The notes under the pieces: generated by a model | What the model saw: the letters and a program-made list of their open reading frames with translations, nothing else | Database searches by the model: none | What the model was told of the DNA's origin: nothing | In this document: piece by piece, positions 40,553-48,906 of the stretch | How the letters are laid out: every line of letters begins with the position of its first letter | Position numbering within the stretch: position 1 is the first letter of the stretch | Position numbers and translations under genes: made by a program | Assembly (NCBI GenBank): GCA_002855745.1 | Contig: NDWX01000002.1 | Span: 1-64,000 of the forward strand | Origin: Thermofilum sp. NZ13 | GTDB taxonomy: Archaea > Thermoproteota > Thermoprotei > Thermofilales > Thermofilaceae | Direction of reading: 5' to 3' | DNA: 64,000 bases

Positions 40553-40837
40553 CTGGCTAGGAAGATCAAGGTCACCCTCTCACTCAGGGAGGATGTCGTC
40601 AGGAGGGCTAAGAGTAGGCTTGCGATGGAGGGTAGGAGTTTCAGTGGTGTTGTAGAGGAGCTCTTGCGGATGTACGACGAGTTGAGCTTCCTCGATGAGC
40701 TCTGCGGGAGACTGGGCCTTGAGAGCAGGTTTTACACGGACTTGGAGGTTGTAGCCAACAGACCCTCGGGGCTTAGGGCTGAGGAGGTGGTGCGCGAGGT
40801 CCGGGATGGGCGCTCAGAGAGCCTACCTGTACACTAG
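40553..40837 (+). CDS. VapB-like antitoxin (ribbon-helix-helix) with a non-standard start
   Basis: The domain begins KIKVTLSLREDVVRRAKSRL, a typical ribbon-helix-helix N-terminus, and continues AMEGRSFSGVVEELLRMYDE. Using ATG 40625 would delete the DNA-binding strand. The only starts before it and after the TGA at 40538 are ATT 40547 and CTG 40553. CTG is adopted here, giving 94 residues. The C-terminus (ANRPSGLRAEEVVREVRDG) would block the toxin. It overlaps vapC by 32 bp. Confidence 0.65.
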   Translation: MARKIKVTLSLREDVVRRAKSRLAMEGRSFSGVVEELLRMYDELSFLDELCGRLGLESRFYTDLEVVANRPSGLRAEEVVREVRDGRSESLPVH

Positions 40838-41246
40838 CGCCGCCGTCGAGAGGTACGTGACCGAGGAGGGAAGTTCGCGGGTCGACGCGCTCTACAGAGA
40901 GGCTCATGCCGGGAACCTCATGATCGGCTTCTCGGTGTGGAACATCGGTGAAGTTGCCGTCGTTTTAGACAAGTACGAGAAGAGGGGTGTCATAGGGGAT
41001 GCTAGAGAGGTCTTCGCGAGTTTCATCGGCGAGACGAGGCTTCTCGCAAGGCTTAGCCAGCTGAGTCTGGTGTCGCTGAAATACGACGTGCTCGCCAGTA
41101 CTATAGGCTACGTGTTCAAGCACGGGATCTACATAGCTGACGCGGTTCAGTTCGCATCGGCTAGAGGGTTCGACGCCTTCTTGACTTACGATAAAAGGCT
41201 TGCCCGGCTGGCTGAGGTAGAAGGGTTGAAACTATATCCGGGATAA
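40806..41246 (+). CDS. PIN-domain (VapC-like) protein with Tyr for the first catalytic Asp
   Basis: A 146-residue protein from ATG 40806. It opens RAYLYTSAAVERYVTEEGSS; in VapC the motif is YLDTSALVKRY, so Tyr9 replaces the first metal-binding Asp. The second acidic region (SVWNIGEVAVVLDKYEKRG) and the third and fourth (GIYIADAVQFASARGFDAFL then TYDKRLARL) look normal. Toxin activity is probably lost or altered. The rest of the gene is intact and shows no other damage. Confidence 0.7.
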   Translation: MGAQRAYLYTSAAVERYVTEEGSSRVDALYREAHAGNLMIGFSVWNIGEVAVVLDKYEKRGVIGDAREVFASFIGETRLLARLSQLSLVSLKYDVLASTIGYVFKHGIYIADAVQFASARGFDAFLTYDKRLARLAEVEGLKLYPG

Positions 41247-42103: not shown

Positions 42104-42319
42104 ATGCGTAACAGAGATAGTACAACCGACAGGATCTCCAGGTCAACGCTCAGAATGCTGGAGCGTGAACGCCAAAAGATGGGTGTAAAATCCCTCGACA
42201 TGGTCATACGGGAGCTCGTGGTGAGGAAAAGGAAGGGGGTTTTGGAGGAGGTCTTCGGCATCGACAGGGGAAGGGTGAAACCGTTCACCGAGGAGGATCG
42301 CGGTGAAGATCGTGGTTGA
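42104..42319 (+). CDS. VapB-like antitoxin
   Basis: A 71-residue protein from ATG 42104: DRISRSTLRMLERERQKMGV then KSLDMVIRELVVRKRKGVLE, with a C-terminal tail (GIDRGRVKPFTEEDRGEDRG). This is the short helical antitoxin type found before PIN toxins. A TATA-like box (gtttataatg) lies near 42062. Its partner toxin, overlapping from GTG 42303, is cut off by a repeat element after 15 codons. Confidence 0.65.
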   Translation: MRNRDSTTDRISRSTLRMLERERQKMGVKSLDMVIRELVVRKRKGVLEEVFGIDRGRVKPFTEEDRGEDRG

Positions 42320-42398
42320 CTCCTATGCATGGATAGAGCTCTTCACTGGCCGCGCCTGGCACATCTGCCCGCTTCACTTTTCTGAGGGCCCCCTTTAG
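42303..42398 (+). pseudogene. VapC toxin truncated by a structured element
   Basis: GTG 42303 starts MKIVVDSYAWIELFTG, a perfect VapC N-terminus with the first catalytic Asp. At 42348 (GGCCGCGCC) the sequence turns into the 254-bp element and the frame ends in it at TAG 42396-42398. No VapC C-terminus is found beyond the element. Confidence 0.7.
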
Positions 42399-42601
42399 GG
42401 GTGTCATGGGTCGCCCCCTTTCGGGGCGGGCCGCGTCCTAGCGGCCTTCAGCCCGCGTCGCCGCGGGCACATCCCCTCCTCGCGCCGCGCGGGGCACCCA
42501 CCCACAGCCCCCTTGACCGGGGTGGGAACTGGTGACACTCACTACTCCACCTGGTTAAGGAGCCTTATCTCCTTTTCGCTTTGAAGGCTGAAAGTGGAAA
42601 C
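42348..42601 (+). mobile_element. GC-rich hairpin element, copy 1 (254 bp)
   Basis: It starts GGCCGCGCCTGGCACATC and ends GGCTGAAAGTGGAAAC. It contains at least six consecutive stem-loops: CCCC-TTTA-GGGG, CGCCCC-TTTC-GGGGCG, GGCCGC-GTCCTA-GCGGCC, GCCCGC-GTCG-CCGCGGGC, CCCC-TTGA-CCGGGG and AAGGAG-CCTTAT-CTCCTT. Copy 2 (44803) has the same boundaries; its changes fall mainly in loops or keep pairing. It encodes no protein I recognise. It may be a non-autonomous transposon, a structured RNA, or both. It sits inside vapC. Confidence 0.7.
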
Positions 42602-42680
42602 AAAGCTGGGTACTACCTGAAGTTGCTGGACTACGGCTTCCTGAGGAGGAGCCCCCACCACGCAGGCGTCACCGTTTCCG

Positions 42681-42827
42681 TTACCGAGAAGGCGCTGTGG
42701 GGGCTGGCGCTTGGCGAGTAGCACTGCGGTCGCAGGCCCTCTCCGTCAGGTAGACGTAGCGTGTGTTGCCGACCACCGTCTCCCCGACGAAGCTAGCCGA
42801 GCGGAGCCTATCGAGGGCGCTGGCCAT
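42681..42827 (-). pseudogene. Winged-helix fragment
   Basis: On the minus strand from ATG 42827: MASALDRLRSASFVGETVVG then NTRYVYLTERACDRS, resembling the recognition helix and wing of an archaeal winged-helix regulator, to TAA at 42683-42681. On the plus strand the overlapping frame to 42721 (YYLKLLDYGFLRRS) also looks winged-helix-like. Only one can be real. Neither is complete. Confidence 0.3.
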
Positions 42828-43053
42828 GGTAGCTGGTGTTCCTCATGCCGAAGGCTTTGGTGTGGAGCTTGGGCTGAGGAGGCCGGGGTGTAAGCCTGCT
42901 GCGGGGCATTGTCGCGCGCCCGGGTAGCTTTCCATGGTATTGAGGGGCCGAGGGGGTGAGAGGCGAGGTAGCTGGGCGCGGTTGCGGCTGAAGCATTATA
43001 GCAGGTTTTTATAGAACCCTTCTTATTGGTAACGTGAGGTAAGGGTTAAGGGT

Positions 43054-43806
43054 ATGGGCTCTGACCTGAAGCTTGAGCTGCTAAGGCTGCTGCGAGAGGA
43101 TGAGGAGTTCAGGCTAGCGGTGGCTGGCCTGCTGGGCCTCGGCGAGATCCTCGAGGAGCTCAGGAAGCTCAGGGAGGACTTCAACGCCTTCGTGCGGGAG
43201 AGCGAGAAGAGGTGGGAGGAGAACGCTAGAAGATGGGAGGAGAATGCTAAGCGGTGGGAGGAGAATGAGAAGAGGTGGGAGGAGCTCAACAAGAGATGGG
43301 AGGAAAACGCGAGACTGTGGGAGGAAAACATGAGGAGATGGGAGGAGAACGCTAAGCGGTGGGAGGAGAACGCTAGGAGATGGGAGGAGGCCGACAGGAA
43401 GTTCAGGTGGCTTATGACGGCCTTAGCGGAGATCAGGGACTCGCTTGGCGGCGCCTTTGAGTACTACACAGCCAACGTGGTGAAGGCTTTGCTCTCCGAG
43501 AGAGGCTTCATATGCGGTGTTAGGGTGAACGTCACTCTGCCTGTGGACGGGTTCAGGGAGGTGGATGTCTTCTGCCCAGAACCCCTAGTGGTGGGCGAGG
43601 CCACGACGTCTCTCAGAACCATAGAGGAGGCGGAGCGGGAGCTAGCGAAGCTGATGTCGAACGTGGAGGCCGCGGAGAGGTTCACGGGGGGGAAGGCCTA
43701 CGTGAAGGTCTTAGCTGTGGAGACAGCGCCGGCCGACGTCGTTGAGCACCTCAGGAGAAGGGCTGCGGAGCTGAACGTGTACCTCATAGTGGGTAGGGAG
43801 TACTAG
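43054..43806 (+). CDS. Coiled-coil plus PD-(D/E)XK-like nuclease-fold protein, copy 4 (tail type C)
   Basis: A 250-residue protein from ATG 43054. The head is LKLELLRLLREDEEFRLAVA then GLLGLGEILEEL. Residues 52-114 are nine heptads of the type KRWEENA, a regular coiled coil encoded by 21-bp repeats. The tail (type C) has FREVDVFCPEPLVVGEATTS, with V-D and G-E-A-T at the expected metal-site positions, and ends ELNVYLIVGREY. It shares only the head with copies 1-3. Confidence 0.72.
   Translation: MGSDLKLELLRLLREDEEFRLAVAGLLGLGEILEELRKLREDFNAFVRESEKRWEENARRWEENAKRWEENEKRWEELNKRWEENARLWEENMRRWEENAKRWEENARRWEEADRKFRWLMTALAEIRDSLGGAFEYYTANVVKALLSERGFICGVRVNVTLPVDGFREVDVFCPEPLVVGEATTSLRTIEEAERELAKLMSNVEAAERFTGGKAYVKVLAVETAPADVVEHLRRRAAELNVYLIVGREY
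43207..43395 (+). repeat. Nine tandem 21-bp repeats inside the coiled-coil gene
   Basis: Nine units close to aagaggtgggaggagaacgc plus one base follow each other without gaps and keep the reading frame. Each encodes one heptad (K-R-W-E-E-N-A). Differences between units are mostly at one to three positions. Confidence 0.85.
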
Positions 43807-43931
43807 CCGCCGGCCTAGCTTCTCGCCAGCTTCTTCCCTAAGTTAGTCCTGTTGCCGCGGTTAGTCGAGTAAGCTGGCAGGCTCTCCGCAGCGGCGTTGG
43901 TTCGAACCAGTCTGCGCCCCGGCGTATCTGC

Positions 43932-44035
43932 TCCTTCGCCGCTTCGATGCCCCTTCTCGGTTTGTCATAGGCTCAGCGCCTTCGGCTAGCCCTGCCACGC
44001 CCCCCGGTCAGGCAGTCATCGGGGTGCTGCCGAGA
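43932..44035 (+). mobile_element. Diverged copy 4 of the hairpin element
   Basis: The part tcataggctcagcgccttcg matches tcatgggctccgcgccttcg in copy 3 (45613), with similar flanks (gccccttctcgg, ctagccctgcc). The ends are not recognisable. It is probably an old, decayed insertion. Confidence 0.4.
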
Positions 44036-44079
44036 CACGATCTCTCTGATAAGACTTTGAAGGGTCTTTGGGGGCGATG

Positions 44080-44240
44080 GTCCAAGGGCAGATCCCTAGA
44101 GGAGCTTGCCAGTGAAGCTGTACTAGGGGTTCTCAACGCGGAGGATCGCAAAAAGCTGGACTTTACCTGAAACTCTGTGAAAAGTACATGCGCGAAGCTG
44201 GGGAGATCTTGGCTAAGGGGGCTGCTCTCACGCTTCAGTA
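44080..44240 (+). pseudogene. PaREP1-family remnant
   Basis: The frame reads GRSLEELASEAVLGVLNAED then RKKLD, then after a one-base shift LYLKLCEKYMREAGEILAKG. This is the first half of a PaREP1 protein (helix with Y-L-x-L-x-E-K-Y-x-R-E-A). The second half is absent. Confidence 0.45.
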
Positions 44241-44475
44241 AAAGCTTGGAAGCCTTAACTGAGGACAGCGGTTTTCCCGTTAAAGGTCTTTTAAGGTCTC
44301 TGCATGCTTCTTGGTGTTCTTAAGCTACTCAGACCTTTTCCCGCAGCTGGCTTTTAGCCGCTTCGGGTTTTCCAGTCTACAATTCTGTAAAGGGGAATAA
44401 AAACGGTAGGGTGGTTAAAGGACGTAGGGATTCCTCCTTAAGTCTACTATAGGGGTATCTTATACAAGGCAACAT

Positions 44476-44485
44476 TAATATATAC
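44476..44485 (+). promoter_or_regulatory. TATA box of the vapB gene at 44502
   Basis: taatatatac lies 17-26 bp before ATG 44502, indicating a short-leader or leaderless transcript. Confidence 0.45.
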
Positions 44486-44501
44486 CGGATGGTAGTCTGG
44501 A

Positions 44502-44744
44502 ATGGTGAGCTATTTGGGTAGGCTTGTGAACGTATCTGTGAAGGTTCCGGAAGAGCTGAGGGAGTTGATGCGGCAAGTGAATGTTAACTGGAGTGAGTAC
44601 CTTAGGGAGGTGATAAAGGCAAGAATAAGGGAGGAGCTTGCAAAGGAGGCATCAAAAAAGCTTGATGAGATCCAAGCTAGAGCTGTGAGGGTGCCGACAG
44701 AGGTTGTTGTGAGGTGGCTGAGGGAGGAGAGAGAACGAAGGTAA
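44502..44744 (+). CDS. VapB-like antitoxin
   Basis: An 80-residue protein from ATG 44502: LVNVSVKVPEELRELMRQVN then VNWSEYLREVIKARIREELA, a ribbon-helix-helix type DNA-binding N-terminus, and a C-terminal helix (VPTEVVVRWLREERERR). The partner vapC starts 5 bp downstream but is cut by the hairpin element, leaving this as an orphan. Confidence 0.7.
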   Translation: MVSYLGRLVNVSVKVPEELRELMRQVNVNWSEYLREVIKARIREELAKEASKKLDEIQARAVRVPTEVVVRWLREERERR

Positions 44745-44749
44745 GGTTA

Positions 44750-44851
44750 GTGGTAGATGCAAGTGTTGCTGTAAAATGGATTATACCCGGTGAGCCTTGG
44801 GAGGCCGCGCCTGGCTCATCTACCCCCTTCACTTTTCTGAGGGCCCCCTAG
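44750..44851 (+). pseudogene. VapC toxin truncated by a structured element
   Basis: GTG 44750 starts MVDASVAVKWIIPGEPWEA, a VapC N-terminus with its first Asp. At 44803 the element begins and the frame ends in it at TAG 44849-44851. Sequence after the element is not VapC. Confidence 0.7.
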
Positions 44852-45055
44852 CGGGGTCATGGGTCGCCCCCTTTTCGGGGCGGGCCGCATCCTAGCGGCC
44901 TTCAGCCCGCGTCGCCGCGGGCACATCCCCTCCTCGCGCCGCGCGTGGCACCCACCCACAGCCCCCTTGACCGGGGTGGGAACTGGCGACTCTCAATACT
45001 CCACCTGGTTAAGGGGGCTTATCTCCTTTTCGCTTTAAAGGCTGAAAGTGGAAAC
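44803..45055 (+). mobile_element. GC-rich hairpin element, copy 2 (253 bp)
   Basis: Nearly identical to copy 1 over the whole length, with the same ends (GGCCGCGCCTGGC...AGTGGAAAC). The loop of the first hairpin changes from TTTA to TAGC while the CCCC/GGGG stem is kept. The second loop gains a T. AAGGAG/CTCCTT becomes AAGGGG/CTCCTT, still pairable with G-U. It interrupts vapC in the same orientation as copy 1. Confidence 0.7.
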
Positions 45056-45128
45056 GGGACTTCTTTGCCTGAGCGTTTTTACGGCTAAGTTGCGTCGCTG
45101 GGTATTACTATCGTTGTCTCTGTTCGCC

Positions 45129-45487
45129 TTAACCCCCTTTTCTTCAGCTCCTCGTAGGCATCCAGGAGTCTTCCGTACTCTTCTGATGCGTACAGCACCT
45201 TCCCCTCCTCTAGCGCGTCCACGATCAGCGGGTTGCACTTCTTGAGCATGGCGAGTGCCTTCTCCAGCGTGTAGGGGTGCGGCTCAACCTCTATCGGTAT
45301 ATCTCCCAGCGCTTCAAGTACCCTGCCGACCCTGTCCAGGTACTTTTCCTTGAAGTCTGATATGATTAGCAGGTCAAAGTCGCTCCAGGGCTTCCAGTCG
45401 CCCTCGCTCTTGACCCAAACAGTAAGACGGCTTTGGCGCCGAACTCCCTCCGGAGCCTTTCCACGACCTCTTCCAGCTCTCTCTCAA
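45129..45487 (-). pseudogene. MNT-type nucleotidyltransferase, frameshifted
   Basis: Minus strand: ELEEVVERLRREFGAKAVLL then FGSRA, then after the loss of one G, GDWKPWSDFDLLIISDFKEK, giving the full GSxxRG...SDxD motif. IPIEVEPHPYTLEKALAMLK and EEYGRLLDAYEELKKRG follow, to TAA at 45131-45129. It is the partner of the HEPN fragment directly upstream. Restoring one G would give a complete protein. Confidence 0.65.
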
Positions 45488-45612
45488 CCCCCGCAGCGTA
45501 TCACCTTCTCCGCGTACTCTAGTACTTTCCTAGCGGCCTCTAAAGCTCTCCGCGAGCTCTCTTCGTCGTATGCCTCATGAGTAGTTCCAGCCGGGTGTGC
45601 GTTCGGGTACCT
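45484..45612 (-). pseudogene. C-terminal HEPN fragment cut by hairpin element copy 3
   Basis: Minus strand: RYPNAHPAGTTHEAYDEESS then RRALEAARKVLEYAEKVIRC, the standard HEPN C-terminus (RYP...Y...A...A..vLEya). Upstream the sequence becomes the reverse of the hairpin element, at its GGCCGCGCC end (45613). The N-terminal half is missing. Confidence 0.6.
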
Positions 45613-45735
45613 GGCCGCGCCTGGCACATCGATTCCTTCACTGATCCGGGGCCCCCTCTTCGGGGTACTCATGGGCTCCGCGCCTTCGGTCCGCCCCGCC
45701 AACCTGCGCCCACTAGGGGCTGTGCGGCAGGGCTG
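45613..45735 (+). mobile_element. Diverged copy 3 of the hairpin element
   Basis: It starts GGCCGCGCCTGGCACATC, identical to copy 1, keeps TTCACT and a first hairpin CCCC-TCTT-CGGGG followed by CTCATGGG, then diverges. The 3' end is not defined. It lies within a HEPN gene, on the opposite strand to that gene. Confidence 0.55.
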
Positions 45736-46050
45736 CCTCAGGCGCCACAACACCTTAACGAGTCCCGTCAGCTCGAGCCGCCTGGCGACGCTCTCCCAGA
45801 CCTCCGCTTACCTCGACTATCATGGCTAAGCGCGCGAGGAGGGTTATAAGCGTTCACAGAGGCTGTGGCTGATGGGAGCCGAGGAGGCATGTAGGTGTTG
45901 CTCGGCCACCCACCAGCAACCCCCTCTCTAGTCCGCTCGAAGCGAGGGAATTAATGGGTCGAAAACGGGAAGAAAAGGGAGAAGGGTTAAAAGACTATCA
46001 GTACGCGTCGTAAGCTTTAAGCGCGTTGGCCGCGCTTTTTCCTCTAAAAG

Positions 46051-48255: not shown

Positions 48256-48906
48256 ATGGCTTCGCTCAGAGAGGAGTTCCTGAAGCTACTGGAGGAGGAT
48301 CGAGAGTTCCGGTACGCTGTGGCAGGCTACCTTGGGGTGCTCGAGCTCCTCAAGAGGCTGGACGCATTGGCTGAGGAGCAGGAAAAAATCTGGAAGGAAA
48401 TCAAAGGCATCAGGGAGGAGATTAAGGCTATCAGGGAGGAGCAGAAAATGCTTAGGGAAGACTTTAACAGGGCTATTCGGGCTTTGGACAGGAGGCTTGT
48501 GAGAGTGGAGCGCACCCTTGAGAAGCTCACGGTAGACATAGAGGAGGAGGCGAGGTCAATCATCAGGCACAGGCTTAAGGCTGAGCTGGGCTTAGACGTA
48601 GAGCTCGCCCCCCTCGTCCTCCCAGAGCTGGAGGTCGACGTCTACGGCGTGTCCGGCGATGTGTGCGTCGTTGGCGAGGTAGCGGTTAGGAGCGGGCTGG
48701 GTGAGCTGCGCAGGCTCCTGAAGAAGCTCGAGCTCCTGAAGAGCAGGTACCCGGAGAAACTGAGGCCTAAAACGATACTGGTCATCTACACTTCCCTCGC
48801 GCTACCGGAGCTCGTCGAGGAGGCAAAGGCGAAGAACGTGTGGGTTTTGAAGGCGACGCAGGACTACTACAAGCCGGACTTCGCAAAAACGCCCGGAGAC
48901 CCATAG
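48256..48906 (+). CDS. Coiled-coil plus PD-(D/E)XK-like nuclease-fold protein, copy 5 (tail type B)
   Basis: A 216-residue protein from ATG 48256. The head is LREEFLKLLEEDREFRYAVA then GYLGVLELLKRL, followed by a short coiled coil (WKEIKGIREEIKAIREEQKM) and a type B tail: LEKLTVDIEEEARSIIRHRL, LEVDVYGVSGDVCVVGEVAV, and the end VWVLKATQDYYKP. The tail matches copy 3 (35265) throughout, but the head is diverged. An AT-rich box (cttattaatttttt) lies about 40 bp upstream. Confidence 0.72.
   Translation: MASLREEFLKLLEEDREFRYAVAGYLGVLELLKRLDALAEEQEKIWKEIKGIREEIKAIREEQKMLREDFNRAIRALDRRLVRVERTLEKLTVDIEEEARSIIRHRLKAELGLDVELAPLVLPELEVDVYGVSGDVCVVGEVAVRSGLGELRRLLKKLELLKSRYPEKLRPKTILVIYTSLALPELVEEAKAKNVWVLKATQDYYKPDFAKTPGDP

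Follow-up and report, generated by a model that had tools for sequence, protein, structure and literature searches.

The stretch considered here, hereafter the window, comprises positions 1 to 64,000 of contig NDWX01000002.1 (G000:C2:1-64000) from Thermofilum sp. NZ13, whose genome (1.88 Mb, 33 contigs, 98.9% complete) was read as stretches around matches. Two 254-bp repeats that are 94% identical, at 42348-42601 and 44803-45055, are found in it together with two diverged relatives. These repeats are very probably tnpB-less, non-autonomous derivatives of a TnpB element of the IS1341 type. On its minus strand, and with the same high confidence, each derivative would comprise a promoter-like segment, then an omegaRNA of about 180-200 nt, and finally the right end GGCGCGGCC, beyond which host DNA would act as guide. 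An earlier sequence-only reading had proposed two near-identical and two diverged copies, and all four are indeed matched, always on the minus strand, by a covariance model built from other copies.

Copies in the Window and Their Parts

The omegaRNA of copy 1 (type A) extends over 42348..42530 on the minus strand (covariance model R1, 81.5 bits, E 6e-18; BLAST families) and terminates with the right end ...CAGGCGCGGCC, which appears as GGCCGCGCC on the plus strand at 42348. The host DNA lying directly 3' of this right end (42328..42347, minus strand) forms the start of a truncated PIN-like reading frame and is the presumed guide, a role attributed by analogy with the biology of right-end element RNAs (reRNAs) (PMC8612924). 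On the other side, the putative promoter segment (internally 'LEshort'; 42519..42601, minus strand), common to nine tnpB-less copies (BLAST map), carries an A+T stretch (CTTCAAAG/GAGATAAG), and its far end contains the region in which a divergent gene, gene X, starts with GTG, seen as AGTGGAAAC on the plus strand. A remnant of the gene X N-terminus (KAGYYLKLLDYGFLRRSPHHAGVTVSVTEKALW) follows at 42608..42712 on the plus strand (tblastn map; homologous upstream regions), as does a remnant of the winged-helix-like open reading frame (ORF) of the element at 42732..42860 on the minus strand (tblastn map).

Copy 2, also of type A, has its omegaRNA at 44803..44984 (minus strand, 78.4 bits) with the right end at 44803. 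By its position relative to that end, the host DNA at 44783..44802 (minus strand), within a truncated VapC-like frame, is the presumed guide, and the promoter-like segment occupies 44973..45055 (minus strand), where homology with other copies ends. Regarding copy 3, which belongs to a second and longer subfamily (type B), only the 3' part of the omegaRNA is present (45613..45767, minus strand, right end 45613; covariance match 45618-45767, 103 bits, model positions 44-188). It is joined to left-part remnants reaching about 46005 (45730..46005, minus strand; weak match with approximate ends), namely a short winged-helix remnant (45730-45777) and a weak match to the left-end profile (45947-45992, E 0.022). 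The diverged copy announced at 45613 is thus found, but in partial form, and appears to be an element of about 390 bp that has undergone internal deletion. The fourth copy is degenerate (43910..44101, minus strand), its best part, 43924-44045, scoring 19.7 bits (E 0.0024) in the window and 29.3 bits in locus L002, with 76% blastn identity to type B. The 18-nt end motif GGCCGCGCCTGGCNCATC occurs three times in the window versus 0.02 expected.

A Dispersed Family Linked to tnpB

TnpB is an RNA-guided DNA-cutting protein and an ancestor of CRISPR Cas12. The whole-genome search that the sequence-only reading had called for does return a family, with 38 BLAST matches to type A and 45 to type B, and a covariance model built from 17 type-B copies recovers 35 copies at E 6e-7 or better, type A being also matched full-length. 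In all, this genome has about 36 omegaRNA copies and 13 intact tnpB genes, one of the latter at C13:24372-25769. The copies are dispersed and many are truncated (BLAST/tblastn map); their flanks are unrelated and the neighboring genes differ at every locus. The tnpB-less layout, i.e., promoter-like segment plus omegaRNA, is common to nine copies in both RNA subtypes, which suggests that the tnpB-less form itself multiplied or recombined. No Rfam family matches the element. A blastn search in 40 relatives found nothing; what is conserved between species is TnpB and the RNA core alone. When GTDB contigs and IMG/VR were scanned for exact matches to the end motif, the only matches, in GC-rich bacteria and viral contigs, looked due to chance and were set aside.

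Pfam PF07282 has 26 matches in the genome, 24 of them over the cut-off, and about 16 lie directly upstream of the RNA. At these loci tnpB is on the same strand as the RNA, its stop codon mostly standing 150-220 nt ahead of the RNA end. In the 400-nt type-B query, a coding sequence for the C-terminal zinc ribbon of TnpB (CSKCGLVYGRDWAA..) is present on the minus strand, in the part distal to GGCCGCGCC. The order on this strand is tnpB, structured sequence and ...CAGTGAAGGGGTGGATGAGCCAGGCGCGGCC, then DNA that is unlike at each locus; the right end is sharp, and the 36 right flanks are unrelated and have no motif in common. The strand first read must accordingly be reversed, GGCCGCGCC on the plus strand being the right end of the element and the 3' end of a minus-strand RNA. 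The 254-bp copies share this RNA and this right end, an 83-nt segment matching the tnpB upstream region standing in place of tnpB; that no protein is encoded is correct for them but not for their full-length relatives, which encode TnpB. An omegaRNA (or reRNA) spans the 3' end of tnpB together with the right end, and about 16 nt of the adjoining DNA are used as its guide (PMC8612924). Since tnpB, structured RNA, right end and variable DNA follow one another as in this published anatomy, the repeat is taken to be an omegaRNA/reRNA module.

Fold and Covariation of the RNA

Among 200 shuffles, at most one folds as well as the element (z -4.2 on the plus strand, -3.4 on the minus strand). Between the copies at 42348 and 44803, 16 columns differ, of which 13 are unpaired and three are paired with pairing kept in both, in agreement with the earlier statement that differences fall mainly in loops or preserve pairing; this count leans towards the structure because the fold was predicted from those same two sequences, with 57% of columns paired. 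For type B, RNAalifold gives 46 pairs on the omega strand, among them a closing helix in which a GCCGCGC region near the 5' side pairs with the terminal GCGCGGC. In Helix I (AGTTCCC..GGG), the inner pairs switch among G-C, C-G, A-U, and U-A. Overall, 19 cells are changed on both sides, compared with a shuffle mean of 6.4 and none of 500 shuffles reaching 19. The proportion of paired cells is 97% versus 36-49% for slid partners, a control that favors the structure insofar as the latter was derived from the same alignment. The fold is kept among divergent copies.

Counts of G-U versus A-C did not clearly separate the two strands, and the assignment of the RNA strand therefore rests on tnpB orientation and folding energy, the consensus energies of omega strand and complement being -51.5 and -46.9 kcal/mol for type A, -79.5 and -60.3 kcal/mol for type B, and -98.2 and -84.5 kcal/mol for the RNAs of G002, a genome of the same genus.

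Family TnpBs are also found in G002 (6 matches) and in G013, a genome of the same family (15 matches). The TnpBs examined there are followed by a diverged RNA whose core is the same, namely the GTTCCC stem, CGCGCG, CGANGAGG, CCCATGAC, GATGAAGG, and the terminal GC-rich partner, and the motifs common to all three genomes include the GTTCCC stem, CCCATGAC, GATGAAGGGGGATGAG, and the GC-rich terminus. The RNA thus belongs to the TnpB clade and is not the repeat of one genome. Taken with the RNA behind tnpB at about 16 loci and the compensatory changes, these homologues bear out the initial guess of an omegaRNA-like or PATE-like element (PATE, palindrome-associated transposable element).

Active Site and Selection on TnpB

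In a core alignment of seven members, D209, D350, E355, D423 and the four zinc cysteines are invariant. The position of the canonical RuvC-II glutamate, by comparison with solved structures, is occupied by Ala or Val and adjoins the invariant D350 of a DVPxxES motif. As most related TnpBs fetched have a similar motif, this variant is a feature of the clade rather than a loss in one copy. In another group of TnpBs the RuvC-II glutamate is repositioned (Ealt; PMC10711439); the present family has Asn at the Ealt position, with Glu or Asp one residue before. Nuclease activity is plausible from these residues. In Thermoproteota-type TnpBs (loci L257-L268 and L348-L395), a DxPxxES motif stands where the canonical RuvC-II glutamate is expected, and it may possibly constitute an alternative active site.

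The 13 intact tnpB cores have a median protein identity of 72%, with pairwise dS (synonymous divergence) of at least 0.55 (median 0.78) and a ratio of nonsynonymous to synonymous divergence (dN/dS) of 0.18-0.34 (about 0.25). These values indicate old duplicates kept by purifying selection, and no recent duplicates are found among the copies.

The Parent Element

Parent elements display, in order, the left end TAGCAATG..CTTTTTAG, the winged-helix-like ORF, the SWIM-like gene on the opposite strand (gene X), a putative divergent promoter, tnpB (product of about 470 aa), the omegaRNA and the right end. Where both ends are present, the element spans 1.3-3.5 kb (2681 bp at C13:24181-26861, for example), full elements being 2.7-3.5 kb long. 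Homology upstream of tnpB extends over about 1 kb. Gene X is divergent to tnpB, starts with GTG at the AGTGGAAAC motif and has a SWIM-like CDC..CTH motif (PF04434, E 0.02, below the cut-off); the winged-helix-like ORF lies beyond it on the tnpB strand. A sharp left end, TAGCAATGSTRCTTTTTAG, recurs about 25 times, the flanks being unrelated. Most of the SWIM and winged-helix ORFs are frameshifted.

Both ends of the 254-bp repeat had been considered as shared termini. This holds for the GGCCGCGCC end, which is the sharp right end, but not for AGTGGAAAC, where gene X starts; in at least five short copies, including that at 42348, the homologous sequence continues beyond it into this divergent gene, and homology is lost there in only four short copies. 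A PaREP1-like gene flanking the AGTGGAAAC side was rejected, since this flank is where gene X of the element itself begins. Nor were gene X and the winged-helix ORF retained as transposase, there being no Pfam match other than the weak SWIM one (E 0.02) and frameshifts in most copies.

SWIM-like plus winged-helix units with neither tnpB nor omegaRNA but with the same sharp left end also exist (50 matches in all; e.g., C4:6733-7172, C33:11874-12360, and C2:118917-119462), possibly as a separate mobile family. Between the SWIM remnant and tnpB, at least four elements (L315, L317, L318, L319) have in common a conserved, GC-rich stretch of about 1.07 kb that shows no coherent reading frame.

Proposed Mechanism, Mobility, and Rival Explanations

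It can be hypothesized that the RNA forms a GC-rich scaffold in which the final nucleotides pair with the upstream GCCGCGC, and that such a solo RNA would bind TnpB produced at another locus. The adjoining 16-20 nt of host DNA would then serve as guide, and TnpB would cut the allele devoid of the element, by which the element would be kept in the population. Transcription of the RNA, binding, guide function and cleavage are here extrapolated, and several points count against this interpretation. This TnpB clade does not conserve the canonical RuvC-II glutamate, so that nuclease activity is no more than plausible. The covariance model of the Thermofilum sp. NZ13 genome misses the G002 RNAs at E 0.01 and matches those of G013 weakly, the homology of the G002 RNAs being based on position and core motifs. 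Left flanks carry no target motif (transposon-associated motif, TAM) except G at -1, and right flanks none, and the Y1 transposase TnpA (PF01797) was not found in the genome, with positive controls.

Of the autonomous partner sought by the sequence-only reading, no TnpA-bearing form was found; TnpB elements with the same RNA and right end are present. No Y1 transposase was found in G002 or G013 either, one genome of the same genus having one, and no serine-recombinase TnpA (PF00239) was found in the genome under study. As contigs end inside repeats (e.g., the starts of C9, C22, C23, C29, C30, and C32), an unassembled transposase-bearing copy is possible. The elements have no terminal inverted repeats and no evident target duplication, and the initial bases of the conserved left end might conceal a TAM. 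When the flanks are joined across elements C2_200542, C1_136320, and C8_24431, open frames result; the exact target is not fixed thereby, because at least two of these joined sites lie at gene ends and Pfam gives no domain spanning the junction. Considered as an empty site, a nested insertion in G002 was not clean and was discarded. Given 13 intact and old tnpB copies and no TnpA found, guide-directed retention alone, an unknown mover or use by the host must account for the family.

Among the rival explanations, the least unlikely, to which only modest weight is given, is that the short copies are plain relics, decaying leftovers in which both RNA and element are inactive. The frameshifted SWIM and winged-helix ORFs, the many truncated copies and the lack of recent tnpB duplicates would fit such decay; however, the copies at 42348 and 44803 are still 94% identical with differences mainly in loops, tnpB is under selection, and the fold is kept across divergent copies. 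That the system has been domesticated, the host keeping TnpB and guides for its own use so that the elements are no longer selfish, is improbable. Such a use could be defense or RNA-guided repression as in TldR, a TnpB-like repressor that has lost the RuvC catalytic residues. While the absence of the RuvC-II glutamate, the intact, old tnpB genes (13 copies, dS 0.55 or more) under purifying selection without a transposase, and several right ends with presumed guides 0-50 nt from gene starts would fit domestication, in a dense genome such nearness to genes is unsurprising, and the flanking genes are different at every locus. In addition, unlike the losses of TldR, the two RuvC aspartates are invariant in the core alignment, where the equally invariant and clade-wide DVPxxES takes the place of the canonical glutamate.

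A palindromic transposon working at the DNA level, whose hairpins would be read by a single-strand transposase without any RNA function, is very unlikely. Hairpins near the right end without terminal inverted repeats or obvious target duplication do recall IS605-type elements and PATEs (PMC3119063), but the structured block of about 190 nt with long-range pairing goes far beyond an end hairpin, is placed exactly at the position of a TnpB guide RNA and has the lower consensus energy on the omega strand in all groups, and no Y1 transposase was found. The identity of the repeats as a tnpB-less omegaRNA family, PATE-like in derivation, is well supported. A broader proposal is that a long-maintained TnpB/omegaRNA family has multiplied without a classical transposase, intact RNA-guided nucleases and about 20 solo guide RNAs acting in trans, nine of them with the shared promoter-like segment, making up a guide set across the genome that either retains the elements or serves the host, with an alternative RuvC-II site; this is put forward as a speculation with little probability.

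Relation to Known Systems

Stand-alone omegaRNAs have been reported for IscB in Ktedonobacter, as guide loci without a nuclease gene while the nuclease is encoded elsewhere in the genome. The present family differs from these in being archaeal, associated with TnpB and provided with a common promoter-like segment. The omegaRNA/reRNA of IS200/IS605 TnpB, e.g., in ISDra2, is likewise a structured RNA from the tnpB 3' end to the right end with the flank as guide (PMC8612924). In contrast with the ISDra2 type, the family reported here, which is known from sequence, has another sequence and a longer GC-rich scaffold that is not in Rfam, is closed by a helix including the terminal bases of the right end, and has many copies without tnpB.

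PATEs of Haloquadratum likewise have no terminal inverted repeats or obvious target duplication and have hairpins near an end; they too are core deletions of TnpB elements, too short to code, and outnumber recognizable transposases (PMC3119063). Some have been described as short forms made by core loss from an IS605-type element (PMC3119063). The short copies here are similarly short, non-coding, core-deleted and hairpin-bearing, with the right end kept, but they retain the full omegaRNA and a promoter-like segment rather than just fused ends, and the known 4-5 nt target sequence of PATEs (PMC3119063) is not seen. Archaeal IS1341-type elements (Natronomonas, Haloquadratum) also have tnpB without an adjacent tnpA in many diverse copies (PMC3119063), whereas no tnpA was found in the present assembly, adjacent or otherwise, and SWIM-like and winged-helix-like ORFs accompany tnpB in full elements.

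A Thermoproteota-type archaeal omegaRNA family, new to Rfam, is thereby defined with its alignment, its structure and paired TnpBs from three genomes. With a promoter-like segment of their own, solo guide RNAs would be ready to act as guides in trans.

Neighboring Genes

Each of the two 254-bp copies is located within a PIN-type (VapC-like) toxin frame or at its margin (42290-42347 and 44750-44802, plus strand). The two frames are cut off after about 15-20 codons, and an antitoxin-like ORF precedes each of them; the window has a third PIN ORF at 40806-41246. At 43054-43806 (plus strand), a 250-aa ORF matching no Pfam family at its cut-off harbors nine tandem 21-nt repeats (7 aa, RWEEN-rich) of coiled-coil type, and its C-terminal part may be a nuclease-like fold. 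A related ORF is present at 48256-48906.

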